Source of the DNA: Chloroflexota bacterium
Lineage (GTDB): Bacteria; Chloroflexota; Dehalococcoidia; Lucifugimonadales; UBA3495
NCBI GenBank assembly: GCA_028875055.1
Contig: JAPPGG010000074.1
Location: 1 to 42,825, forward strand
DNA length: 42,825 nt
Direction: 5' to 3'
This document shows, one piece after another, positions 1,827-30,722 of the stretch. The notes below the pieces were generated by a model. The model made no database searches. It saw nothing but the letters and a program-made list of their open reading frames with translations, and was not told the DNA's origin. The position numbers and the translations under genes were made by a program. The first letter of the stretch is position 1; each line of letters opens with the position of its first letter.

Positions 1827-1972
1827 GGTAATGACACAGGACGATTGCAAAGTGGCTGTAGTGGGTGCCTGTCGTTCTGAGCGCAGCGAAGAATCCCTGG
1901 CTGCAGGAAAAGGACTCTTCGCTTCGCTCAGAGTGACAGGGTGGACTTTGCAATCGTCCTGGGTAATGACAC
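1827..1972 (+). mobile_element. MITE-like element of 124 bp with 11-bp flanking duplication
   Basis: A perfect 16-bp terminal inverted repeat, AGGACGATTGCAAAGT at 1838-1853 and ACTTTGCAATCGTCCT at 1945-1960, encloses a second inner palindrome containing CTGAGCGCAGCGAAGAATC and its near-complement CGCTTCGCTCAGAGTGACAG. Both sides carry the same 11 bases GGTAATGACAC (1827-1837 and 1962-1972), which I read as the target-site duplication. There is no coding capacity. It sits directly upstream of the first replication-relaxation-like gene; the homologous upstream region of the second copy lacks it. Confidence 0.75.
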
Positions 1973-2015
1973 TTGCCTGATGACCGCCACGCTCCCGGTC
2001 TGATACGCTCGACAC

Positions 2016-3722
2016 ATGAGCGTCTCCGACCGGGAATTGCTGCACCATCTCAGCCTCATGCCCTTCACCGACACGGCGGAACTGGCGATGATCACCGGGG
2101 AGGCCCACGTCGCCATCCACCGGGGCCTGGCCGGCATGATGGCCGACGGCATCGTGGAGCGCGTCGGCCACGGCACCGCTCACCTGCCGACGAGCAGGCG
2201 ATACTACCTGACGAGGAAGGGCGTCGGCGAAGCCGCCGGAGTACTGGGCTTCGATACGCCCTCGGACTACGTGCGTGCCTACCCGGTGTCCCGGGAGTGG
2301 CTCGCCCTGCTGGTCCGCCGCATGGACGCGGTGGCCACGGTATACCGCCTGGCGGCGTCCCTTTCTCCCGGAACGGACGGGCGCTGTTCCCAGGTGGACT
2401 TTCACCGCCGGGGCCGGTTCGACGCGGTGATCACTCTCCACGACGGGCTCACCTTCGGGGTGGTGCGGCAGGGTCCGGCGCTACGGCGCCGCTCCCTCTA
2501 CGACCGGCTGCGGGCCATCGCGGAGTACGGGTACCGGCGCCGCCCCGGCACGGTCCTGGTGCTGGCCCCCAGCGTCTGGGAACAGCGGTTTGCGACCAGG
2601 TTCTGCGAGCGGCTGAACATCGACGACTGCTACGTGGCCGTGGAGTCCAGGGATTCCCTGGAGGACTGGAACAGCAACGCCTGGCGCTATGCCTCGTGGC
2701 TCTTCGGCAGCCTGCCCTATTCATTGGAGTTCATCCGCACCCGCGGCAGCCCGAACCGGGGACCCTTCACCGAGCCGCCGGAGCGCAAGCGGGCCTCGCT
2801 GCCCGACGCGCAGCGGATGGTGCAGGCCGCGCCCACCTTCGGCCTGACTTCATCGGAGAAGCGGACGCTGGACCTGATCACCGACCATCCGATGATACCC
2901 CGGGAGCATCTGGAACGCTGGCTGGGGGTTACCGAGGGCCGGGTCAGCCAGATGCTGCGCAATCTGGTGCGCACCTGGGGTCTTGTCGAAGGCCACGGCA
3001 AGCAGGGCGACATCCGCTACACCCTGACGGAGGAGGGCATCCGCTACGTCACCCACCGGGACCGGGCGCAGCTGCCGACCACCCGGGGAATATGGAGCGC
3101 GGAGCTTACCACCGACAAACACGGGAGGCGGCGGCATCTGGGCCACCGCATCGAGACCTGGGCCAGGCAGACCAGGCACGCCGACGGGGTGACCTGGTTC
3201 CTGTCGGAGCTGGCGGCGGAGGCGCGGGCGACGGCGGACTCCCAGCTGACCTGGTCCGTCCCCACGGCCAAGACCGACCGGGCCTTCAACTGGGGGGAGT
3301 CGGCCATCGCCCCGGACGCAGTGGGACACCTCATCGCCGACGGACTGCACATCCCCTTCTACCTGGAGCACGAACTGCGCGCCCGCCATCCCAAGGGAGT
3401 GCTGGCCCGGCTGCGGCCCTACACCGACTACTACCACTCCAACGCTCCCGAGACGGACATGACCCCCTTTCCCGTGACCCTGTTCGTGGTGGCCAACGAG
3501 GAGGTGGAGGAGACCTACGCGAGGACGGCTTCCAGGATGAACCTGATGACGCTGCCCATCCTGGTATCCTGCGCCGGCACCCTGACGAGGAACGGGCTGC
3601 TGGGCCGGTCCTGGCGTCCCTTGTGGGCGTCCCGACCCAGGCGGCTGGCGCTGTCGGGACTGAGGGCCTACCGGTGGGACTCGCTGCGGCACCGGATGCG
3701 TCCGGTAGAGGGGGAGACGTGA
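2016..3722 (+). CDS. replication-relaxation-like protein, copy 1
   Basis: The 568-residue protein starts MSVSDRELLHHLSLMPF. Residues 1-75 look like a winged helix (TAELAMITGEAHVAIHRGLA, then a wing with SRRYYLTRKG). A second MarR-like winged helix lies near 285-350 (EKRTLDLITDHPMIPREHLE, then LGVTEGRVSQMLRNLVRTWG, then RYTLTEEGIRYV). The C-terminal half has a nuclease-like or 'replication-relaxation' character similar to Pfam Replic_Relax proteins of Actinobacteria and Chloroflexota mobile DNA. I give that family name from pattern memory. No strong Shine-Dalgarno precedes the ATG, but the same start is conserved in copy 2 on the other strand. From about codon 166 on, the two copies encode identical protein; before that they differ at roughly 30 positions. 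Confidence 0.65.
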   Translation: MSVSDRELLHHLSLMPFTDTAELAMITGEAHVAIHRGLAGMMADGIVERVGHGTAHLPTSRRYYLTRKGVGEAAGVLGFDTPSDYVRAYPVSREWLALLVRRMDAVATVYRLAASLSPGTDGRCSQVDFHRRGRFDAVITLHDGLTFGVVRQGPALRRRSLYDRLRAIAEYGYRRRPGTVLVLAPSVWEQRFATRFCERLNIDDCYVAVESRDSLEDWNSNAWRYASWLFGSLPYSLEFIRTRGSPNRGPFTEPPERKRASLPDAQRMVQAAPTFGLTSSEKRTLDLITDHPMIPREHLERWLGVTEGRVSQMLRNLVRTWGLVEGHGKQGDIRYTLTEEGIRYVTHRDRAQLPTTRGIWSAELTTDKHGRRRHLGHRIETWARQTRHADGVTWFLSELAAEARATADSQLTWSVPTAKTDRAFNWGESAIAPDAVGHLIADGLHIPFYLEHELRARHPKGVLARLRPYTDYYHSNAPETDMTPFPVTLFVVANEEVEETYARTASRMNLMTLPILVSCAGTLTRNGLLGRSWRPLWASRPRRLALSGLRAYRWDSLRHRMRPVEGET

Positions 3723-3755
3723 TGGGGCAACTGACGCGGCCCCATCTGCCCATTA
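2016..3755 (+). repeat. left arm of a ~1.74-kb inverted repeat
   Basis: This segment and 8349-10088 on the other strand are inverted copies. The stretch from about 2505 to the stop looks identical base for base where I compared it, and similarity continues some 30 bases past the stop. The 5' ~490 bases are clearly diverged. Upstream similarity resumes as TGACACTTGCCT before both starts. Confidence 0.85.
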
Positions 3756-3777
3756 TTCCCGCGACGAAGGAAACGTC

Positions 3778-8121: not shown

Positions 8122-8348
8122 CGCTTTTCACCTCGCCATGGGCTGATACGTCGGGCCTCTGCAAGTGGTACAATTCCGGTACATTCTACTCCCGGGATTT
8201 TAGTCCCGCTTTTCAATTTTCCCTCTGACTTGTCAGGGGATGCGTCAACCCCGTTTTGTACCTGAAATCGAGGGTTTTGGGGCCTTTTCACCCTCCCCGG
8301 ATGACCGGAATCGGGCCTGCCGGGACGGTTTTGGACACCCAGCGGGGA

Positions 8349-10088
8349 TAATGGGGAAATGGGGCCGCGTCAGTTGCCCCATCACGTCTCCCCCTCTACC
8401 GGACGCATCCGGTGCCGCAGCGAGTCCCACCGGTAGGCCCTCAGTCCCGACAGCGCCAGCCGCCTGGGTCGGGACGCCCACAAGGGACGCCAGGACCGGC
8501 CCAGCAGCCCGTTCCTCGTCAGGGTGCCGGCGCAGGATACCAGGATGGGCAGCGTCATCAGGTTCATCCTGGAAGCCGTCCTCGCGTAGGTCTCCTCCAC
8601 CTCCTCGTTGGCCACCACGAACAGGGTCACGGGAAAGGGGGTCATGTCCGTCTCGGGAGCGTTGGAGTGGTAGTAGTCGGTGTAGGGCCGCAGCCGGGCC
8701 AGCACTCCCTTGGGATGGCGGGCGCGCAGTTCGTGCTCCAGGTAGAAGGGGATGTGCAGTCCGTCGGCGATGAGGTGTCCCACTGCGTCCGGGGCGATGG
8801 CCGACTCCCCCCAGTTGAAGGCCCGGTCGGTCTTGGCCGTGGGGACGGACCAGGTCAGCTGGGAGTCCGCCGTCGCCCGCGCCTCCGCCGCCAGCTCCGA
8901 CAGGAACCAGGTCACCCCGTCGGCGTGCCTGGTCTGCCTGGCCCAGGTCTCGATGCGGTGGCCCAGATGCCGCCGCCTCCCGTGTTTGTCGGTGGTAAGC
9001 TCCGCGCTCCATATTCCCCGGGTGGTCGGCAGCTGCGCCCGGTCCCGGTGGGTGACGTAGCGGATGCCCTCCTCCGTCAGGGTGTAGCGGATGTCGCCCT
9101 GCTTGCCGTGGCCTTCGACAAGACCCCAGGTGCGCACCAGATTGCGCAGCATCTGGCTGACCCGGCCCTCGGTAACCCCCAGCCAGCGTTCCAGATGCTC
9201 CCGGGGTATCATCGGATGGTCGGTGATCAGGTCCAGCGTCCGCTTCTCCGATGAAGTCAGGCCGAAGGTGGGCGCGGCCTGCACCATCCGCTGCGCGTCG
9301 GGCAGCGAGGCCCGCTTGCGCTCCGGCGGCTCGGTGAAGGGTCCCCGGTTCGGGCTGCCGCGGGTGCGGATGAACTCCAATGAATAGGGCAGGCTGCCGA
9401 AGAGCCACGAGGCATAGCGCCAGGCGTTGCTGTTCCAGTCCTCCAGGGAATCCCTGGACTCCACGGCCACGTAGCAGTCGTCGATGTTCAGCCGCTCGCA
9501 GAACCTGGTCGCAAACCGCTGTTCCCAGACGCTGGGGGCCAGCACCAGGACCGTGCCGGGGCGGCGCCGGTACCCGTACTCCGCGATGGCCCGCAGCCGG
9601 TCGTGGAGGGAGCGGCGCCGTAGCGCCGGACCCTGGCGTACTACCCCGAAGCTGCGGCCATTGTGGGCGGTGATCACCGCGTCGAATCGGCCCCGGCGGT
9701 GAAAGTCCACCTGGGTACATTGCCCGTCCGTTCCGGGAGAAAGGGACGCCGCCAGACGATATACGGAGGCCACCGCGTCCATCCGGCGTATCAGCAGGGT
9801 GAGCCATTCTCTGGACACGGGGTAGGCCCGTACATAGTCCGAGGGGATGTTGAAGCCGAGTATATCGGCGGCCTCGCCGACTCCCTTCCTGGTCAGGTAG
9901 TACCGCCTGCTCGATGGCAGGTGGGCGGTACCGTGACTGACCCGCCCCACGATGCCGGCGGCCAGCAGCCCGGCCAGGCCCCGGTGGGTGGCAACGTGGG
10001 CCTCACCCAGGATCATCGCAAGTTCCGCCGTGTCAGCCAGGGGCATACGGCTCAGGTGGTGCAGCAGTTTCTGGTCGGAGACGCTCAT
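8349..10088 (-). repeat. right arm of the ~1.74-kb inverted repeat
   Basis: This is the partner of 2016-3755. The arms enclose about 4.6 kb carrying the membrane-protein genes, the decayed antitoxin and the HTH/coil/TM gene. Unlike the left arm, no MITE lies upstream of the start. Confidence 0.85.
8382..10088 (-). CDS. replication-relaxation-like protein, copy 2
   Basis: The protein has the same length (568 residues) and the same start, MSVSDQKLLHHLSRMPLADT, as copy 1. The frame is open further upstream to 10124, but copy 1 and the alignment support the ATG at 10086-10088. Differences from copy 1 are confined to about the first 165 residues and include many conservative exchanges in and around the first winged helix (AMILGEAHVATHRGLAGLLA). 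The remaining ~400 residues, with the second winged helix and the C-terminal domain, are identical. The likely role is DNA binding in replication or relaxation of a mobile element. That is inference from family resemblance. Confidence 0.65.
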   Translation of the reverse strand: MSVSDQKLLHHLSRMPLADTAELAMILGEAHVATHRGLAGLLAAGIVGRVSHGTAHLPSSRRYYLTRKGVGEAADILGFNIPSDYVRAYPVSREWLTLLIRRMDAVASVYRLAASLSPGTDGQCTQVDFHRRGRFDAVITAHNGRSFGVVRQGPALRRRSLHDRLRAIAEYGYRRRPGTVLVLAPSVWEQRFATRFCERLNIDDCYVAVESRDSLEDWNSNAWRYASWLFGSLPYSLEFIRTRGSPNRGPFTEPPERKRASLPDAQRMVQAAPTFGLTSSEKRTLDLITDHPMIPREHLERWLGVTEGRVSQMLRNLVRTWGLVEGHGKQGDIRYTLTEEGIRYVTHRDRAQLPTTRGIWSAELTTDKHGRRRHLGHRIETWARQTRHADGVTWFLSELAAEARATADSQLTWSVPTAKTDRAFNWGESAIAPDAVGHLIADGLHIPFYLEHELRARHPKGVLARLRPYTDYYHSNAPETDMTPFPVTLFVVANEEVEETYARTASRMNLMTLPILVSCAGTLTRNGLLGRSWRPLWASRPRRLALSGLRAYRWDSLRHRMRPVEGET

Positions 10089-10272
10089 GTATCGAGCGTA
10101 GCAGACGGGGAGCTTGGCGGTCATTAGGCAAGTGTCAGTGCCTCCGGTGTATGGAACATGGGCATGAGCAGCAGGTTTGAGTTAAGGGAATGGGGCCGCA
10201 AGTGCGAATGTCTCGGGCCAACCCAGGCGGAGAACGGTGGCCTGCGGATTCGGCGCCGCTTTCGCGGGTTGC

Positions 10273-10640: not shown

Positions 10641-10723
10641 GGCGGGAAACTACCTGTGAGCGTTACCAACCTTGATAACCCTCACGGGTCCCCTGGCATC
10701 CGGCGCCTCCCCTGCTGTCGTGG

Positions 10724-10880
10724 GGGTGTACAGGAGATTGAGTTTTGCAGCGAACCGCCGGGTGGGTCGTTTCAAAGCTGAAACAGGGGAAATCGACCCC
10801 TTACTGGACGTGACCGGTGAACACTTCGAGTTAAGGGCCGGTTCCGGCCTGGAAGCGAAAAACCCGATTGACGTGGGGGT
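10724..10880 (+). repeat. hairpin repeat A
   Basis: The head is GTGTACAGGAGATTGAG; at 10770-10783 it carries the imperfect palindrome TTTCAAAGCTGAAA, then GGTGAACACTTCG and a GTTCCGGCC tail. The same order of blocks recurs in repeats B to D. Confidence 0.65.
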
Positions 10881-11084
10881 GCATGACGGGGCGAAAAACG
10901 GCGTTGACCTGGAAAAAGCCCCCAAAATGGCCGGGGATGTGCCGGTGCGTTACGTGCTGGACGGAACTGGTCCTGCCCCGGCGTTCAGCCCCACATGCAG
11001 CCTCTCCTACTCCAGGGCGGTGTGCTGCGTGGATACTGACGTGGACGCAGACTCCCGGCTCGATGTGTTGTCTCGTCTCTTCAC

Positions 11085-11230
11085 GCATATCCTCTCGTCG
11101 GTGGTGTGCGATCGTGCCTCCGTGTCAAGCTGGGTCATCGGCTTCCGGGTCATCTCATTCACCTCGCATGGTTTCGGGTTGATTTGGGCCGCCGGCATCT
11201 TCGGCAGCGCCACTGGCGAGTGTGGACCAT
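11085..11230 (-). repeat. leader repeat R2
   Basis: R2 matches R1 across about 140 bases with many substitutions. On the minus strand it leads into a frame starting MREETRQHIEPG at 11088 that then shares nothing with the R1 product. The repeat is therefore conserved up to the start codon and diverges after it. Confidence 0.6.
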
Positions 11231-11320
11231 CCGGGCAGCGGAAAAGACCCCCCATAGGGGGCCGCACGGATGCAGCCCCTTTCAGGCTCTCGATTTTTCA
11301 CCTCCCGCTTTGCGTATTGG

Positions 11321-11475
11321 GGGGTGTACACGAATTTGGTTCTTGTAATGAGACCGGAAAACTGCTGGTTTCAAAGCTGAAACAGGCGCAAATCGGGCGA
11401 AAATGTGCCCCGAACCTGTTAACACTTGGTTGAAAGGGCACAGTCCAGCCCCGGGACGCAAAACCGGGTTAGGGG
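11321..11475 (+). repeat. hairpin repeat B
   Basis: The head is GGGGTGTACACGAATTTGG. TTTCAAAGCTGAAA at 11369-11382 is identical to that in copy A, and GTTAACACTT follows at 11418-11427. Confidence 0.65.
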
Positions 11476-11584
11476 GTCTGCAAGAAATCAGGACACCCCG
11501 GCGCGAAATCGTGCATTTCCCCCTCCAGGGGTCAACAAGACGCGGCCCTTGGCGGGACGGGCGGCCCGTGGGTGGGGAACCGGG

Positions 11585-11690
11585 TCGGAGTATCGGTCGC
11601 AGCAGCACGTCGTTCACCTCTCCAGGGCTGTGACGATGGGTCTGTTCGCCAACGCCGCCAGCCAGTGTGAACCACTCGGACGCCCGGCAT
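11585..11690 (-). repeat. leader repeat R3 (shorter, more diverged)
   Basis: On the minus strand it shares the TTCACACTGGC...GGCG block and GGTGAACGA with R1 and R2. The ribosome-site and start-codon end is not recognisable. Confidence 0.5.
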
Positions 11691-11794
11691 AACCTCCCGC
11701 GAGGGCACGCATTCCTGCGGGGGCGCCTGGGGACCCGCATTGGTGCGGGGGCGCGCAGGGCCTTATGCCGGCGGCCCCTCCCGTGATGTCATTG

Positions 11795-11945
11795 GGGTGT
11801 ACAGGAGATGGACGCCGGTTGTAGACATGCAATTCGGGCGGTTTCGTAGCTGAAATCGGGGGAAACAGGCCGCCTGCGGGGGATTGCCGGTTAACACTTT
11901 TCGTAAGTCCCCGTTCCAACCCGGAGTTGCAGAAGCCCTAGCTGA
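11795..11945 (+). repeat. hairpin repeat C
   Basis: The head is GGGGTGTACAGGAGATGGA. A small stem TTGTA/TGCAA (one G-T pair, loop GACA) follows, then TTTCGTAGCTGAAA at 11842-11855 and GTTAACACTT at 11890-11899. The end overlaps another stem, GTTGCATTTCTGCAAC (11948-11963). Confidence 0.65.
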
Positions 11946-11986
11946 AAGTTGCATTTCTGCAACCCGTCGCCAAGGAGGAGCTAGGG

Positions 11987-12428
11987 ATGGATGCAATGCA
12001 GACGGGCATCGACCGGAGCGCAGCGTGGAGGACCTGCGCCACCTGCGGCTGATGGCCCTATTGGACGAGTTGGTGCGCGACAAGGGGCCGCGCCGGGCGG
12101 CGGCGGACCTGGACGTGGACCACCGGACCCTCACGGCCAGCCCGGAGAGCGGCAGGCTGTCCCGGCGGATGCGGACGGCCCTGAACCAGGCCCTGCTGGC
12201 CGGGGCCGGGGTTTGGAGTGGCTGCGCGACGAGGAGCGGCTCATGCCGGTGGAGCTGGCGCTCCTGGAGGAACACGGGCTGACCCTGCCCCCGCAGACCA
12301 ACTGGCGCCGCAAGGCCATGGAGGACGCCCGCAGGCGGCAGGACAGGCTCCGGTGGCCGCTGCGGACGCTACGGATGAAGCTCCGGCGCAGGCAGTGTCT
12401 GCGAAAGGGCCGGTTCCATTCCTGTTAA
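11987..12428 (+). pseudogene. frameshifted HTH protein
   Basis: An AAGGAGGAG ribosome site precedes ATG at 11987 (MDAMQTGIDR). After about ten codons the sense shifts frame to SVEDLRHLRLMALLDELVRD, KGPRRAAADLDVDHRTLTAS and SRRMRTALNQALLAGAG, a clear helix-turn-helix of a type common beside Chloroflexota mobile DNA. Near 12215 it shifts again to EWLRDEERLMPVELALLEEH and an Arg-rich end. Two frame breaks make it a probable relic unless the assembly is at fault. The HTH would have bound DNA as a repressor or element-specific regulator; partners are unknown. Confidence 0.6.
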
Positions 12429-12658
12429 CAATTTGCCGGTGGGGTGCTGCAAGGGACTATGCAACGGTCCTGGAGTGTGCGACGATTGAATGGTTATCTG
12501 GCTTTTCCAGGGTTTCCCGCCATAGAAACCTGGGGGCGCCCCCTCGAGCCCGGGTCTGACCGTAGGGATGATTCGCTCTCCCGAAGGTCCCCAAGAGGGA
12601 ACGCTGCCGCTGCGGATTTGACGTAAGCTCTCTGTAAGCAGCGCGGACCGGACCAGGC
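12429..12658. other. intergenic, no gene seen
   Basis: A fragment resembling the GTTAACA block of the hairpin repeats lies at the left end (CTGTTAACAATTTG, near 12421). Nothing else is recognisable. Confidence 0.4.
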
Positions 12659-12718
12659 GGAGTGTTTAAGTCCTCCGTCCCCGGTCCAGTCCGGCGGTTG
12701 GAGTGTTTAAGTCCTCCG
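12659..12718. repeat. 19-bp direct repeat pair
   Basis: GGAGTGTTTAAGTCCTCCG occurs at 12659-12677 and again, perfectly, at 12700-12718. Each copy has GGAG/CTCC ends that could pair as a short stem. Two copies 41 bases apart suggest a protein-binding site or the remains of a larger duplication. Confidence 0.7.
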
Positions 12719-13604
12719 GCTGCCGGGCACCCGTTCAGCGGTCCGGGGCTGATCCCTCCGGTCCGATGGACACCCGCCCGGTGGCATGAGCTAGTCACTC
12801 CTGCGACTGGACGGAGGGGACGGAGCGTTTAGCGGCGCTCCGTTCTCACCCTGGCTGAGGCATTCGTGAGTCCTGCTCGCGGCGCCCCAGCCGGAAACAA
12901 TACCCAGGAAACGCGCGGCGCGTTTCACCAGGCAACCCGAACCCAGGCGGTATCCCGACCCAACGGCGTTCATCATCATCAAGGAGGTGGCGTACCGAAA
13001 CAGCACGGCGTCCCGGATTCCCTATCCTTCGGTTCTACATAGCGGAGCGACGGCACGCTGCGCACTCTCTTACCCCTGCGGTTGGAGCGTGGACAACGCC
13101 TTGGCCGCTTCCCCACGCCTGCGGCGTAGCTGCTGAACACCGGCAGCGGCACCGCAGGATCAACATGCTCCGGTTCCCCGAAATGCCGGACCGGACGCTA
13201 ACCATTGCCACGCGATTGACACCGGGCTGGACGCTGACGGCGTAGCCCGTTGCCGCGCTGCGTTCCTCACCCTTTCCCTCACGTAGCGGTTCCCAGGACT
13301 TACACCCTGGCCGAACTGCGTCTTTCGCCAATCCCCATTCGGCGTTTCCGTTGCGCCGCCCGACCCTGGCCCCATTGCGTCCTGGGCCAACTCCCGAAGC
13401 CCAGTTCTCCGTTGAGCCGTCCTGGCGAGTGAACCGGGCGGAGTCTGCTACGCCAATGGCGATTCTGACCCGGATGTCATTGACCTGGAGGGCGGTTCAA
13501 GGGCGGAGGACAAGGAACCCGGGACCGGCGGCGCCCGGTCGTCCCGTCTCGCTTCCGGTTGCGAAATCACCCCTCCAGGACCCCGCCAGGGCCGGGTTCG
13601 ATGT
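12719..13604. other. gene-poor segment with diverged repeats
   Basis: No frame here convinces as a gene. From 13208 to 13392 the sequence resembles 16160-16375. On the minus strand both give WRKxQFxxGVxxGNxxxRE, which could be a relic coding sequence or coincidence of a repeat. Around 13425-13445 a fragment TGGCGAGTGAACCGGGC recalls leader repeat R2. Confidence 0.4.
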
Positions 13605-13760
13605 TATACCCGTGTACATGAATTGACGCCAGTTGTAGAAATACAAGTCGAGGCCATTTTGAACCTGAAACGGGGCTGGATTGTGGCCCGAATGCCGAAT
13701 TTGCGAGCAATCCCGTGTAAGGTCCGGTTCCGGCCCACTTGTATTTTTGCAAGCGGGTTG
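13605..13760 (+). repeat. hairpin repeat D
   Basis: The head is CCCGTGTACATGAATTGACG. The perfect stem TTGTA/TACAA with a GAAA loop lies at 13633-13646, then TTTTGAACCTGAAACGGGG. The tail is TCCGGTTCCGGCC, as in copy A. Confidence 0.65.
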
Positions 13761-13979
13761 ACAGGGCGATGGATCAGGCACGGGGACGGCGCCGCCACAC
13801 CGCGAGGGTCTCCTTCCACCAACGCCGGCTGGGTAACGGCAGGTACCAGGGCGCTCTGACCTTGAGACGGTTGCTCAAGTCGATGATGGCCCCGGCGGGC
13901 TGGCCTGGTACCCTAAAAGCAGGGACTTGCGAGTCATCCCTTTTGGGACAGCGGATTTGGACGGGCCGCCGGGGTGTCA
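13761..13979. other. between hairpin repeats, no gene seen
   Basis: No supported coding frame lies between copies D and E. Confidence 0.4.
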
Positions 13980-14075
13980 TACCCGTGTACAGGAGATGGA
14001 GGTTGGTGGACAGGTGTCCAATGTTGTCCGGTTGAACCTGAAATCGAGGGAAACCACCCCCTTGTATCTTGGTTA
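13980..14075 (+). repeat. hairpin repeat E, next to the IS110 element
   Basis: The head is CCCGTGTACAGGAGATGGA. The stem TGGACA/TGTCCA with a GG loop lies at 14007-14020. The block ACCTGAAATCGAGGG at 14036-14050 is identical to 8260-8274. The downstream part seen in copies A to D is lost near the left side of the IS110 element. Confidence 0.65.
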
Positions 14076-14145
14076 TGTGGGAATAATCTTTCCCATTGGG
14101 TGCGGCAGACCGAACCCCCTAAGGTCTTGGAAGGCCGTCCGATAG

Positions 14146-15223
<1,078 letters not shown>

Positions 15224-15274
15224 TATTGGACGGTTGCAGCTAGCACCTGGGTTCCAGAGCAGGTTCCAGCCCCG

Positions 15275-15374
15275 TTGGACAGAGCCACGTTCAGAATCGG
15301 ACAGTTGTCCAATGGCTGGAGTCGGCATGATTGGACAGCGCTACGTTGGAAATTGGACAGTTGTCCAGCGGCAG
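15275..15374 (+). repeat. two 56-bp repeats with palindrome TGGACAGTTGTCCA
   Basis: Two direct units begin TTGGACAG at 15275 and 15331. Each continues with an (A/C)GC(C/T)ACGTT block and then GGACAGTTGTCC. The stem TGGACA/TGTCCA is the same as that in hairpin repeat E. The array resembles iterons or an operator cluster. Confidence 0.65.
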
Positions 15375-16625
15375 GGCAAGGCCCGGGCGGTGGAGACTCT
15401 GGGGCCAGTCCGCGCACCTTGACCCGGTTCGAGGATGGCCGATGGCTGACCCCCACCCTGGTCGGGGCGTTGGAAAAGGCGCCTATTTGGAGGGGGCGGG
15501 TTGGCGGCGCCTCTCAAAGAGCCCGGACGATCTGATCGTGACCTGAACCGACTCGTGCTGCGGTGCTTCCTCACCTTCGGATTCTGGCGGAATTAGGGCG
15601 CCGGGGACGTGAGCGGAACGGCCATGCTGATGCTGCGACTCCAGAGCGAGCACTTTGTCTTGGATGGCCTGATTGCTGCGCTTTGCCCCTTCCCCGAGAC
15701 GGCGGGCTGGGCGATACTGAATGTGTTGTCCGGCTTTTGCCAGTGTTTTCAGCCCAGAAAACTGGAGGGTCCATCCCCGACCCGGTTTGTTCGCTAGGGA
15801 TCGAGCCCTGCTCTCCCGGCGGCAGACCATCAGGGGATAAGCGCCCGCCCGCTGCGTGATGCGGAACAGGGGTCGAGCATTGCTCCTCCGGCGACCGGTT
15901 CGATGCGGGACATCACACCAGCCTGGCGCCGGTCGTCAGCATCGCCAACATCGTCCAGGAGGCGAAGACTGGAACAAACGCGGTAGACCAGGACCTGAAC
16001 CCTTCGCTCCAACTCACCGAGCGCACACGAAGTTGCGCTCACCCCTCATGCTGCGGCTGGACCGGGCTTCGCCGTCCGGCCGCTCCCTCACGTCTGCAAC
16101 GTAGCTGCCGTACCAGCAGTAATCAGGCCGCAGGCCCCACCCGCTCCGGTTCGCCAACGGCGGCGACAGGCTGGACGCTCTCCCTGGCGACGCGGTTTCC
16201 ACCGGCGCGCTGGCTGACTGCGTGGCTGCTGGCACTACTGCGCCCCTTCCACTCTCTCGCAAAACAGTTCCCGGACATCACGCCAAGGACGAACTGCGCC
16301 TTTCGCCAGCCCCAAATCCGTCGTTCCGAGTTGCTCCAACCTGCCTTGGGCGTAGTGCGTCCGGCACCGGGCGGTTGGATTGAGCGGCTGAGCGTTACCC
16401 TGGGCTGCCTGCGCCTCTCGCCAACCCTCATTCCAGCCTTCGCCATTGCTGCCCTCGACCCAGGGCGTGGTGCGTCATGCCCCACCTCGCCGACTCAGTA
16501 TATCCGTTGCCGAGCCGGGCCGGACCGTGGGCGTAATGCGTCCAGCACAGCAGAGAGGCACAGGCTGATGCCGATAGCCGGTGGAATGGGGGCGATCCTG
16601 GAGGGTCAGAAGGTGCCCTTGGCCA
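15375..16625. other. gene-poor segment with diverged repeats
   Basis: I see no supported gene. 16160-16375 resembles 13208-13392, and 16380-16490 is a further, shorter copy sharing CTGCGCCTCTCGCCAA. The minus-strand reading is coding-like (GWRKAQFVLGVMSGNCFARE) but has no proper start or family. Confidence 0.4.
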
Positions 16626-16790: not shown

Positions 16791-17062
16791 ACCGGCAATA
16801 AGTCCCAAGTCCCGCCGCGCCACGCTTCGGGCGGCGGAGACCAGGGTGGCTGCGTGAGCCGCCACTGACAATCGAATAGGCGCCAACGAGCGGGGTCGTC
16901 TCTCCCAAGTGCGGGAAGGCGGCCCCGCTCTTCGTGTTTCCCAATCTGGCGACCACGACCAAAGCGGCTGAATGGACCGCACCCAACGACCTGCATCTTG
17001 AACCGGAGAGCGGGGTCGGTCCATTCGGACCGCCTCGCTTTCCGCCTTTCGGAGGAAGCGAC

Positions 17063-18064
17063 ATGACCACCGTTATCGGCAACAGCAACAGCACCGAGAC
17101 CACCAATAACCTTGCAGTCACTCTCGACGGCCAGCGCGACACCAACGCCCTACAGGACACGGAGGCCCAGCCCCATTCGGAGAGCAAGTTTGAGAACCAG
17201 GGCAAGACCGAGAGCGAGCTCAGGGCCGCCGCCCGGCGCAAGGGCCTCACCCTCAAGGAACTGGCCGCTTTGATGGCCGTCAACTACAGCCACCTGTGCT
17301 CGGTGGCCAACGGGCGCCTGCCCTGGACTCCCGACCTGCGGGAGAAGGTAATGGCCGTCCTGGGCGAGGTCCCCGGCCAGGGCGTGGTCTACCGCCCGGG
17401 CGGCCGCGTCGGTGACTCAGGGAGCAACTACATCCGGGAGCAGGCCAGAGAGGTGGGCCTGAGCATGGGGGAACTGGCGGACCGGGTGGGCATCTCACGC
17501 AGCTACCTGTCCCAGGCGGCACGGGGAGACCGCCACTTCGGTCCCCAGGTCCAGGCGCGGGTGGAGGCGGAGTTGCAGGCTCCAGTCAAAGTCGAGGCTG
17601 CCCAGCGTCCCACCGTTGACCCCAGGGCCCTGTGGGACCGGATGGATGCGCTGGGGCTCAGCCAGAATGAGGTGGCGCGACGAGTCGGCGTCAGCAACGG
17701 CTACCTCTCCCAGATCATGAACGGCAAGCGCACCCCGTCGGGGAACGTACTGCGGCGGCTGTACGAGGTCCTGTTCCGGCCGTCCGGCGAGGAACTGGTG
17801 GTCCCCGCCGAGTTGAAGGTGCTGGCCTGGAAAAAGGGCGGGCGCAACGGCGTGGTGGTGCGCGGCGCCGGTGGTCCGGGGGCTGGCGGAAACAACCCCG
17901 GCGGCGGCACTATCCGCATCGGCGGGCACGTTCCCTGGGGGGCCGAGGTGGAGTTCGCCTACACCAGCGGCTACGACAGCCGGGGCCGGGTGACGGTAAC
18001 CCACTTTGTGGACGAAAGGGGCTACGGCGTGATGTTGCAGCGGCGGGAGCCGGACCAGGTTTAG
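17063..18064 (+). CDS. regulator with three XRE-type HTH domains
   Basis: The ATG at 17063 follows CGGAGGAAGCGAC; the frame is open upstream but without a ribosome site. The 333-residue protein has an Asn/Thr-rich N-terminus of about 45 residues and then three helix-turn-helix units. HTH1 is GLTLKELAALMAVNYSHLCS (about 60-79), HTH2 is GLSMGELADRVGISRSYLSQ (about 133-152), and HTH3 is GLSQNEVARRVGVSNGYLSQ (about 195-214). The C-terminal ~90 residues include a Gly-rich linker (GAGGPGAGGNNPGGGTIRIG) and a small beta domain. Three Cro/C1-type domains in one chain imply binding to a spaced or repeated operator. The repeat arrays at 10-15.4 kb are obvious candidates, but that link is inference. Confidence 0.8.
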   Translation: MTTVIGNSNSTETTNNLAVTLDGQRDTNALQDTEAQPHSESKFENQGKTESELRAAARRKGLTLKELAALMAVNYSHLCSVANGRLPWTPDLREKVMAVLGEVPGQGVVYRPGGRVGDSGSNYIREQAREVGLSMGELADRVGISRSYLSQAARGDRHFGPQVQARVEAELQAPVKVEAAQRPTVDPRALWDRMDALGLSQNEVARRVGVSNGYLSQIMNGKRTPSGNVLRRLYEVLFRPSGEELVVPAELKVLAWKKGGRNGVVVRGAGGPGAGGNNPGGGTIRIGGHVPWGAEVEFAYTSGYDSRGRVTVTHFVDERGYGVMLQRREPDQV

Positions 18065-28208: not shown

Positions 28209-28356
28209 TGTGAATTTCCGACAACATTGACCCACTAAAGGCCAATATTTCCCGCAACATTGACCCACTCCGAGCAGGAAATTTCCTGCAACATTGACCC
28301 ACTCTTTGGGAGCCAATCGGCGACCATTGCTGCACTTCAGGAATGGAGGTGCAGGG

Positions 28357-29925
28357 ATGGCGTACCGGGAGGTTGCCAGAGTGGAAATACAGGAGATTAT
28401 CCGGCGGTGGAAGCTGGGCGAGGGACACCGCCGAATCGCATCGGGGACCGGTGCATCCCGGAACACAGTCCGCAAGTACCTCAGCGCTGCGGCAGCGGCG
28501 GGAATTTCCCGCTACGGGCCGCCCCCGACTCCAGACCAGGTCAGCAGGCTGGCAGCCCTGGGCCAGGCGGGACTGCTGAAGCCCAAAGTGACCAACGAGG
28601 AATTGTTGGACCCCTGGGCTGACCAGATCCACCGGTGGCTCACCGGCGACCGGCTGCAGATGACCCGGATCCACGAGTTGCTGGTGGCTCGCGGCTGTTC
28701 CGTGAGCTACAAGTCGGTGTGGGGCTTTATTCACCGGCGCCAGTGGCGACGGCCTCGCCGTGCCACCATCCGCATGGAAGAGACGCCTCCAGGCGAAGTC
28801 GCCGAGATGGACTTCGGCCGCCTGGGCCTGATCCCTGATCCTCAGAGCGGCCGTCGGCGGGTGGTATACGGGCTGATCCTGGTGCTGGGGTACTCCCGGC
28901 ACAGCTTCCTCTGGCCCACCAGCAACCAGAAGCTGGAGGACGTCATCGCTGGCCTGGAGTCGGCCTGGGCCTTCTTCGGCGGCATCCCCAAGTACCTGGT
29001 CATCGACAACTGCCCTCCCGCGGTGGCCACGGCGGATCCCCTACATCCCGTCTTCACCCGGGGCTTTCTGGAATACTCCCAGCATAGGGGCTTCATCGTC
29101 GATGCGGCCCGGGCCCGCCATCCCAAGGACAAACCCAAGGTGGAGCGCAATGTCCAGTACGCCCGCGAGCGCTTCTTCAAGGGGGGCGAGTTCAAAGACC
29201 TGGCCGATGTCAGAACTCAGGCGCACCGCTGGTGTCTGCAAGTGGCGGGACAGCGGATCCACGGCACCACCTTCAGGCAGCCCCTGGTGGTCTTCCAGGA
29301 CGAGGAGCGCCAGGCCCTGTTCCCCTGGGACGGCGAGCCCTACGAGATCGCCGACTGGCGCCACGCCAAGGTCCACCAGGACCATCATATCCAGTGCCAG
29401 CAGGCGCTCTATTCAGTACCGTCCAGCCTCTGCCCTCCTGGCCAGAAGGTGGAGGTCCGGGTGGACAGCAAGCTGGTGCGCATCTACCACCGGGGCCAGC
29501 TGGTCAAGACCCACGTCCGCCAGCCTAAGGGCGGAAGGTCCACCGACAATGCCGACTATCCCGCTGAGCTTTCCGCCTACACCACCAGGGCCCCCGACGG
29601 CATCAAGGCCAGCGCAAAGGAACTTGGTCCCTCCGTAGCCGAGTTCGCCGACCGGCTCTTCGACGGTCCCCTGCCGTGGGCCAAAGTCCGGCAGGGACAC
29701 AAGCTGCTGCGCCTGGGGGAACGCTACACCGCGAAGCGGCTGGACGCCGCCTGCGGCCGGGCTCTGGAGGTGGACCTCATCGACGTCACGCGCCTGGAAC
29801 GCATCCTGGTCCAGGCCCTGGAGGAGGAGACCACCCCGGAGTTGCCAGCGTCGCTACCCCAGGGCCGCTTCGCCAGGCCCGGATCCGTCTTTTCCCATAC
29901 CAAGCAACACCGCCGTACGGCTTAA
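28357..29925 (+). CDS. istA: IS21 transposase IstA
   Basis: The ATG at 28357 follows GGAGGTGCAGGG. The 522-residue protein has an N-terminal helix-turn-helix (HRRIASGTGASRNTVRKYLS) and a second DNA-binding region (MTRIHELLVARGCSVSYKSV). The DDE integrase core shows AEMDFGRLGLI (first Asp), YLVIDNCPPAV (second Asp) and HPKDKPKVERNVQYARERFF (Glu). The C-terminal beta domain resembles Mu-transposase C-terminal folds. IstA cuts and joins the element ends after IstB selects the target. The gene is full length and undamaged, and its product is 12 bases upstream of istB. Confidence 0.93.
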   Translation: MAYREVARVEIQEIIRRWKLGEGHRRIASGTGASRNTVRKYLSAAAAAGISRYGPPPTPDQVSRLAALGQAGLLKPKVTNEELLDPWADQIHRWLTGDRLQMTRIHELLVARGCSVSYKSVWGFIHRRQWRRPRRATIRMEETPPGEVAEMDFGRLGLIPDPQSGRRRVVYGLILVLGYSRHSFLWPTSNQKLEDVIAGLESAWAFFGGIPKYLVIDNCPPAVATADPLHPVFTRGFLEYSQHRGFIVDAARARHPKDKPKVERNVQYARERFFKGGEFKDLADVRTQAHRWCLQVAGQRIHGTTFRQPLVVFQDEERQALFPWDGEPYEIADWRHAKVHQDHHIQCQQALYSVPSSLCPPGQKVEVRVDSKLVRIYHRGQLVKTHVRQPKGGRSTDNADYPAELSAYTTRAPDGIKASAKELGPSVAEFADRLFDGPLPWAKVRQGHKLLRLGERYTAKRLDAACGRALEVDLIDVTRLERILVQALEEETTPELPASLPQGRFARPGSVFSHTKQHRRTA

Positions 29926-29936
29926 GGAGATTCCCC

Positions 29937-30722
29937 ATGACCATGACTACCGAACTCACACCCCTGCTCAAGCAACTCAAGCTGGGCGCCATGGCCGACA
30001 CCCTGACCGAGCGCATCGCCCTGGCCCGCAGGGAGCAACTGGACTATGCCTCCTTCCTGGAAATCATCCTCAGTGACGAGGTCAACCGCCGCGCCAACCG
30101 GCGCATGGAGCTGAGAATCCGGGCCGCTGGCTTTGAGGAGACCTGCCGATTGGAGGACTTCGACTGGTCGGCGTCCATCACCCTGGATCGCCGACTGCTG
30201 GACGCCGTCTTCTCCCTGGAATTCCTGGCCAAGCACGAGCACGTCCTGCTGGTTGGCCCCGCTGGTGTGGGCAAGACCTTCCTGGCCCAGGCCCTGGGCT
30301 ACACCGCCGTCCGGGCCGGACATACCGTCCGCTTCCTTCACGCCGACGATTTCTTCAGGGCCATGGCCCAGGCCCGGGTCGACAACTCCCTGGAGCGCGC
30401 CTTCAGGTCGGTTCTCTCTCCCGACCTGCTCATCCTGGACGACCTGGGCCTGCATAAGCTTACGGCCCAGCAGTCTTCCGACCTGTACGAGCTGATCATC
30501 GGCCGTCACCGCTCTTCCAGCTTCATCATTACCAGCAACCGGGCCGTGGAGGAGTGGCTCAGTCTCTTCGAAGATCCCATATTGGGGAACAGCGCGTTGG
30601 ACCGCCTGGCCAATGCCTCTTATCAGATCGTCATCGAGGGGAGAAGCTATCGGGAGAGACTCTCTCCCCACCAAGCTCTCCTGGGCACAGTGTCCAGGAT
30701 TCTCACGAATAACGGGGATTGA
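29937..30722 (+). CDS. istB: IS21 helper ATPase IstB
   Basis: The ATG at 29937 follows TTAAGGAGATTCCCC. The 261-residue AAA+ protein resembles DnaC: LLVGPAGVGKTFLAQALGYT (Walker A, about residues 105-124), LLILDDLGLHKL (Walker B) and FIITSNRAVEEWLSLFEDP (sensor region). The N-terminal helices (LTPLLKQLKLGAMADTLTER) are typical of IstB. It binds target DNA as an oligomer and recruits and stimulates IstA. The frame is intact. Confidence 0.93.
   Translation: MTMTTELTPLLKQLKLGAMADTLTERIALARREQLDYASFLEIILSDEVNRRANRRMELRIRAAGFEETCRLEDFDWSASITLDRRLLDAVFSLEFLAKHEHVLLVGPAGVGKTFLAQALGYTAVRAGHTVRFLHADDFFRAMAQARVDNSLERAFRSVLSPDLLILDDLGLHKLTAQQSSDLYELIIGRHRSSSFIITSNRAVEEWLSLFEDPILGNSALDRLANASYQIVIEGRSYRERLSPHQALLGTVSRILTNNGD

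Follow-up and report, generated by a model that had tools for sequence, protein, structure and literature searches.

Paired near-palindromes on a constant scaffold, probable DNA control regions of a previously unnamed regulator family on mobile elements of uncultured Chloroflexota

Among described systems, the closest analogue that we found for the repeats considered here, judged by layout alone, is the looping switch of RcoLS20 from plasmid pLS20, a conjugative-element regulator that binds repeats in two operators within one intergenic region, the operators lying 75 bp apart and the looping having a phasing requirement (PMC4207663). Our repeats are five copies of a ~155-bp element (copies A to E) in a 42,825-nucleotide stretch of a Chloroflexota bacterium genome (assembly GCA_028875055.1, contig JAPPGG010000074.1, positions 1 to 42,825 of the forward strand; herein referred to as the window), and they are probably the control regions of HHL genes, named for an HHLRL motif, which look like a previously unnamed family of DNA-binding genes on mobile elements of uncultured, SAR202-type and mostly sponge-associated Chloroflexota. 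The two systems share the two-operator layout, with 104–143 bp between site centers here versus 75 bp in pLS20; however, the RcoLS20 sites repeat one motif, whereas each unit here has its own near-palindrome within a constant scaffold, and the HHL regulators form a large paralogous family.

Two further comparisons concern the regulator. In lambdoid immunity regions, a self-regulated helix-turn-helix (HTH) repressor and Cro act with palindromic operators beside the gene, and specificity diverges between elements (PMC3317979, PMC9986795). An HTH-like regulator, palindromic sites adjoining its gene and diverging specificity are found here too; the HHL proteins nevertheless exceed the lambdoid ones in length, include a coiled coil and a helical domain at the C-terminus, and show no detected homology to them, and here a 130-bp scaffold is common across specificities and a structured RNA candidate lies 3′ of the gene. 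The operators of restriction–modification (R-M) controller (C) proteins lie close together, whereas the sites here are about 106–129 bp apart and no R-M genes are consistently linked to them. Those proteins, such as C.Esp1396I (PMC4041747) and C.Csp231I (PMC4321490), are small HTH regulators whose operators precede the genes under their control, and C.Esp1396I is among the weak fold matches to HHL.

An earlier note on this DNA, made from its letters alone, had described five copies with a shared order of blocks, and this description holds; all five lie on the same strand. The first block, GTGTACANGANNT, which serves as the anchor, occurs five times in the window against 0.03 expected, a count that none of 100 shuffles reached, and the copies (at 10726, 11324, 11797, 13612, and 13985) align their conserved blocks in constant order. 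The scaffold blocks are GTGTACAGGA, TTCGTAGCTGAAA or TTTCAAAGCTGAAA, GTTAACACTT, and AAGGGCCGGTTCC, and the inner scaffold is the most conserved part of the copies. Under R1, a sequence-only model built from 20 copies with window copies A to D among its sources, the window copies score E=1e-11 to 1e-29. The short stems noted in copies C, D, and E (V1) are likewise present, but a second palindrome (V2), with the same core as V1 and placed at the 3′ end of these three copies, had been missed (table 1). The orthologue of copy D in the related genome G004 has the V2 sequence CTTGTATTTTTACAAG. At the V1 position, copies A and B lack a convincing hairpin, and in copy A this position (10740-10759) is not palindromic. 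In a class of copies from other loci (L081:416-554, L039:4450-4588), a long hairpin lies mid-copy (GCTGAAATGGGCGA TTA TCGCCCATTTCAGC in L081), unlike other classes.

The informative pattern in the copies is the correspondence between V1 and V2. Each copy's two near-palindromes carry a common sequence, spacer included, in direct or inverted orientation, and this sequence is specific to the copy and differs between copies (for instance AGTTCCCAAAAGGGAAGTCGG with AGTTCCCAAAAGGGAAGTGGG, GTTGCATAAATGCAAGTCGG with GTTGCAGAAATGCAAGTCGG, and GGACAGTTGTCCA, TTCCCAAAAGGGAA, and GGACAGTTGTCC each occurring twice). Over 74 non-redundant copies, the mean V1/V2 match is 9.18 within copies and 6.45 between them, a difference reached in 0 of 20,000 permutations, whereas the same test applied to V1 and mid-copy sequence finds nothing (1262/5000). 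This comparison replaced a best-palindrome scan that had mis-picked palindromes in many copies. Where the palindromes are clear, V1 is centered 27–29 bp from the anchor, and the distance from its center to that of V2 falls at 104–110, 115–120, 126–132, or 136–143 bp, with clusters near 106, 118, and 129. The distances fit best to a period of 11.5 bp, with equal regularity in 1 of 5000 jittered sets, which is suggestive of helical phasing though not decisive. Because V1 and V2 match in both orientations and the spacer is conserved as well, a double-stranded DNA site is favored.

The copies are also tied by position to one gene family. HHL is an orphan family whose members lie downstream of copies on the same strand: a copy stands 35–263 bp upstream, in the same orientation, of 53 of the 56 N-terminal HHL matches in the loci examined. 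Since those loci had mostly been chosen for having copies, the source genome (G000) was searched by protein as well, and 9 of its 10 loci with an HHL N-terminal part have a copy immediately upstream. The HHL gene that follows copy C in the window is decayed, with AAGGAGG...ATG at 11972-11989 shortly 3′ of the V2 of that copy; an intact gene is found at G000:C15:15468-16355, and others in L168 and L174, with the addresses TTGCA and TTCCC, respectively. No assignment beyond chance was obtained for HHL from Pfam, NCBIfam, or PHROG, and no relative in the plasmid collection, in the phage collection, or by sequence in PDB. The protein, of ~300 amino acids, is modeled (predicted local distance difference test, pLDDT, 69) as an N-terminal helical, HTH-like domain, then a long coiled coil, with a further helical domain at the C-terminus; the HTH is read from this model together with a sequence motif. 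The nearest folds to the N-terminus, which include Fis, XRE-family proteins, and N15 Cro, are weak matches of low confidence (Z about 5).

A third line of evidence connects the protein to the site. The recognition helix has a role in lambdoid operator specificity, and the start of the second predicted helix of HHL (H61-70), the presumed recognition helix, carries the motif G-V-x-x-[K/R]-T. Operators followed the variable residue of this motif, K being accompanied by TTCC..GGAA and R by either TTGCA or GGACAG. By protein cluster, the TTCC..GGAA operator occurs in 5 of 6 K clusters and 0 of 15 others (p=3e-4), the rule having been formed post hoc on these same data. A rule set beforehand, joining [YH]RT to TTGCA..TGCAA, held in 5/8 versus 0/16 among 24 further genes (p=0.0013), and a class with DRKT[LI]W uses GGGGCA (4/4 vs. 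1/20, again post hoc). The simplest reading of this covariation is that HHL proteins bind V1 and V2.

We hypothesize, with a probability of roughly 0.7, that the copies are DNA control regions, namely autoregulatory operators, of mobile-element regulator genes, probably working via DNA looping. Each ~155-bp copy would be the double-stranded promoter/operator region of the HHL gene directly 3′ on the same strand, its scaffold holding two or more copies of one near-palindromic operator at set distances. The HHL protein would most likely bind V1 and V2 as a dimer or oligomer and, by bending or looping the intervening DNA, bring them together and so control its own gene; binding, autoregulation, looping, and the sign of regulation are what we infer from the sequence patterns. 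Paralogues would have diverged jointly in the presumed recognition helix and the operator, giving each unit a private address. Of the three options that the earlier note had offered, an operator family is the one best supported, by the V1/V2 pairing, the placement of HHL genes, and the helix covariation. Where a copy has no intact gene, as with D, E, F, and others, it would be a relic or an additional target. Copies D, E, and F (the last at G000:C9:8590-8730) each have a clear V1/V2 address and no HHL gene alongside, and copy E, which shares its GGACAG address with the intact HHL unit at G000:C30:10926-12000, may be among the targets of that protein.

Several observations weigh against this hypothesis. 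Matched V1/V2 pairs reach threshold in 32 of the 74 non-redundant copies and are absent from classes A and B, the 11.5-bp period does not quite equal 10.5, and distances in the C class extend to 143 bp. The helix rules do not cover every case: on the 24 new genes the K rule alone gives p=0.054, weaker because the DRKT[LI]W class has GGGGCA instead. As many as 33 of 77 copies have no intact HHL gene within 3 kb, some of them at contig ends; no sigma-70-like promoter was found, so that a promoter is assumed; and the scaffold blocks are left unexplained. The HHL structural model, finally, is of middling confidence and has no significant structural match.

The alternative that survives best, though we consider it unlikely, is that the copies form an origin or centromere of the mobile element, with iteron- or parS-like sites that serve in replication, partition, or transfer and are bound by HHL as a Rep- or Par-like protein. 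Rep and Par genes often have their own repeated sites in front, so that the layout would be similar, and the V2 regions of copies C and E contain X half-sites both as direct repeats ~22 bp apart and as inverted repeats, a pattern known from iteron plasmids. Replic_Relax, TraG, TraC, and TrbL genes stand in the neighborhood, and the TTTCA....TGAAA block may resemble the half-site arrangement of parS. For an origin, however, some ten HHL genes and 27 copies within a single genome are many, HHL has no Rep or Par family match in Pfam, NCBIfam, or PHROGs, and the operators differ from unit to unit.

Somewhat less probable still is a structured 5′ leader RNA of the HHL gene (an attenuator, a riboswitch-like element, or a small RNA) in which V1 and V2 would be alternative stem partners. 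V1 often has a GAAA-type loop and is able to pair with V2, and, with V2 in the sequence, copies D, C, and F surpass shuffles in folding (z about −2.3 to −3.1). RNAalifold, however, returned 0 consensus pairs over 20 copies, and the pairs predicted in the same way for 16 D-class copies join V1 to V2 only, which shared palindromes explain equally. Direct-orientation matches, such as AAAA/AAAA spacers, are not needed for pairing but are to be expected if the site is DNA; the operator varies with the DNA-reading helix of the protein; copies A and B have no stem; and terminator-like sites are no more frequent than chance. The copies gave no gathering match in Rfam 15, and a permissive search of 10.0–15.4 kb returned chance-level matches only. 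The earlier note had taken compensatory change in the stems as a sign of a selected structure, with a non-coding RNA as one candidate. Paired changes do exist and the palindrome is selected, but both fit palindromic DNA sites, and for the copies themselves the RNA proposal is not borne out; they do not behave like an RNA family, and their V1/V2 matches suit double-stranded DNA.

Its other proposal, single-strand recombination sites of an integron-like cassette system, is very improbable. The copies do occur in same-orientation series with genes between them, and a large serine recombinase and an excisionase-like gene lie near some loci, but the copies precede one gene family rather than flanking varied cassettes, no attC-like long-range pairing of conserved ends was seen, and TIGR02249, the model for an integron-type tyrosine integrase, gave partial matches to two open reading frames (ORFs) of the genome, none above cut-off, with equally weak matches in 14 of 14 control genomes. 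Self-spreading miniature transposable elements would explain several copies per genome with related ends, yet we regard this as the least credible of the alternatives, given copies fixed in one orientation to the 5′ side of HHL genes and an inner scaffold that is their most conserved part. Protein coding through the repeat, considered on account of minus-strand frames open in some copies, was rejected by inspection because the spacing from V1 to the block varies by 1–2 nt and the shared frame is broken by a stop in copy A.

Copy E, which had looked short, is split by an IS110-family element, and its right half ends at ~15371, beyond the interval considered in the earlier note (10724-14075). 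The transposase ORF of the insertion matches Pfam DEDD_Tnp_IS110 (9e-22) and Transposase_20 (6e-20). A relative carries copy E uninterrupted (L017/L025), and in L017 (genome G004) the empty site joins window 13363-14062 to 15223-16328 with a 2-bp overlap. This rules out the idea that an autonomous IS110 transposon ends in copy E and that copies A to D derive from it; an IS110 bridge RNA is ruled out as well, since the conserved blocks of copy E fall outside the IS110 boundaries. The clean empty site also gives near-exact ends of the IS110 element together with its putative bridge-RNA region.

Further copies in related genomes, a check that the earlier note had proposed, were found in number. 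R1 has 27 matches at E<=0.01 in the source genome; of 250 genomes of the order, 28 contain matches; and a pattern search of the source genome and 49 others of its family found A-, B-, and D-type relatives in five further genomes. Across 84,980 species, a pattern scan placed true copies only in sponge-type Dehalococcoidia/Chloroflexota bins and in one contig of an ‘Acidobacteriota’ bin, the named records being Dehalococcoidia, SAR202, and Chloroflexota bins, several of them sponge-derived by isolate name. This 3.4-kb contig (L036, JAPPFQ010000213.1) has at least three copies near a serine recombinase, a RelE-like/XRE pair, and HTH genes, and reflects either transfer between phyla or a binning error. 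Among viral contigs, 13 match the short pattern and none passes the profile; the plasmid collection contained no match to copy D; and the open-access literature yielded no description of these elements.

Genes around the copies include Replic_Relax, TrbL, TraG- and TraC-like, excisionase-like, and large serine recombinase genes, and on account of these the surrounding elements are mobile and probably conjugative. The large serine recombinases found in the same elements (L165:14233-15828 and L162:3833-5578, on contigs C1 and C49 of the source genome) are related to SCCmec Ccr and XisF. In the window, 1967-3762 (+) and 8342-10137 (−) are inverted copies of a Replic_Relax region (95.5% identity over 1796 bp), and 28294-30722 holds a complete-looking IS21-type pair (istA-like ORF 28294-29925, istB 29676-30722). 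Ends of IS21-family elements were rejected as an identity for the copies: copy F adjoins an IS21 istA and the other copies do not.

Table 1. Features of the window around the repeat copies, in order of position
Feature	Position	Strand	Evidence or sequence
Replic_Relax-domain gene of mobile element	8382..10124	-	Pfam PF13814 5e-11; divergent from copy A
Copy A	10713..10864	+	R1 99.9 bits, match 10713-10852; A-type relatives in other genomes of the family
Copy B	11310..11473	+	R1 81.3 bits; same class as copy G on contig C15
Copy C	11784..11963	+	R1 82.5 bits
Copy C V1	11817-11834	+	GGTTGTAGACATGCAATT
Copy C V2	11925-11963	+	Half-site AGTTGCAG, then GTTGCA-TTTC-TGCAAC
Decayed HHL gene	11959..12428	+	N-terminal part 11959-12213, C-terminal part ~12198-12350, in different frames; protein and profile search
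Large structured non-coding RNA candidate	12480..13400	+	Covariation, 19 loci; core 12598-12729 is the R2 match
Copy D	13600..13753	+	R1 67.0 bits
Copy D V1	13631-13648	+	AGTTGTAGAAATACAAGT
Copy D V2	13736-13753	+	CACTTGTATTTTTGCAAG
Copy E left half	13973..14062	+	R1 44.1 bits, model positions 2-94
Copy E V1	14001-14023	+	GGTTGGTGGACAGGTGTCCAATG
IS110-family element inside copy E	14063..15222	+	Transposase ORF 14212-15207
Copy E right half	15223..15371	+	R1 20.4 bits, model positions 90-142
Copy E V2 units	15274-15315, 15330-15371	+	TTGGACAG...GGACAG-T-TGTCCA, twice
Multi-HTH_3 regulator	16934..18064	+	Pfam HTH_3 4.7e-22, two stretches; paralogue of L033:17604-18866, contig C15

A 0.9-kb region that lies 3′ of the decayed HHL gene, with copies C and D on either side, is apparently an undescribed large structured RNA. 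Its position (12.48–13.40 kb) is inside the interval of the earlier note, in sequence that the note had not flagged. Over the first 370 nt, RNAalifold finds 70 pairs in an alignment of 19 loci, with 97.0% of cells paired (94.0% when shuffled, 0/500 reaching the observed value; 38–54% when slid) and 48 cells with two-sided changes against 15.4 (standard deviation 3.7) in shuffles (0/500). For the full 0.9 kb, nine loci give a consensus energy of −218 kcal/mol on the HHL strand, compared with −158 on the opposite strand and −131 after column shuffling, and the HHL strand has 268 G-U cells versus 27 A-C cells. Because of this stronger energy and the excess of G-U over A-C, the RNA is probably read in the HHL-strand direction. 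The region has only short overlapping frames and was treated as non-coding, and a search of Rfam gave no match (best E=0.57, unrelated and on the other strand). Its short hairpins are repeated, and loops of GTGTTCAAGTCC type and ATTTGACGTAGCTC type swap at the same position between loci.

The described RNAs most like this candidate are GOLLD and ROOL, large structured RNAs of mobile elements whose function is unknown, GOLLD often exceeding 800 nt (PMC12286853). The likeness, which concerns this neighboring RNA only and not the copies, is that all are large, structured, and borne by mobile elements; the candidate differs in its ~0.9 kb of repeated short GGAG-loop-CTCC-type hairpins, in having no Rfam match, and in its linkage to conjugative-type HHL genes rather than phage tRNA islands. 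Among 247 genomes of the order, a covariance model (R2) detects it in 15, and in 27 of the 33 loci fetched it lies immediately 3′ of HHL sequence on the same strand; the other six comprise three near a contig end and three where a copy is present with no intervening HHL gene. In other families of the class that carry HHL genes the RNA was not found, and the HHL gene and its control element therefore do not need the RNA.

A broader proposal, which we hold tentatively and to which we would give somewhat less than an even chance, is that control element, HHL regulator, and 0.9-kb structured RNA make up a three-part module that has spread through the conjugative elements of SAR202-type Chloroflexota, with private, co-evolving addresses and with HHL working together with a new, large and ornate RNA. 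The RNA might then be, for example, the regulated product, or a partner of HHL.

If the copies are indeed HHL operators, these genomes would hold dozens of natural paralogous regulator–operator pairs on one scaffold, in which the DNA-reading helix and the site change together. With many variants at hand, such a set would allow tests of specificity, of DNA looping, and of how co-resident mobile elements are insulated from one another. The large structured RNA next to these regulators of uncultured bacteria, apparently undescribed so far, adds to their interest.

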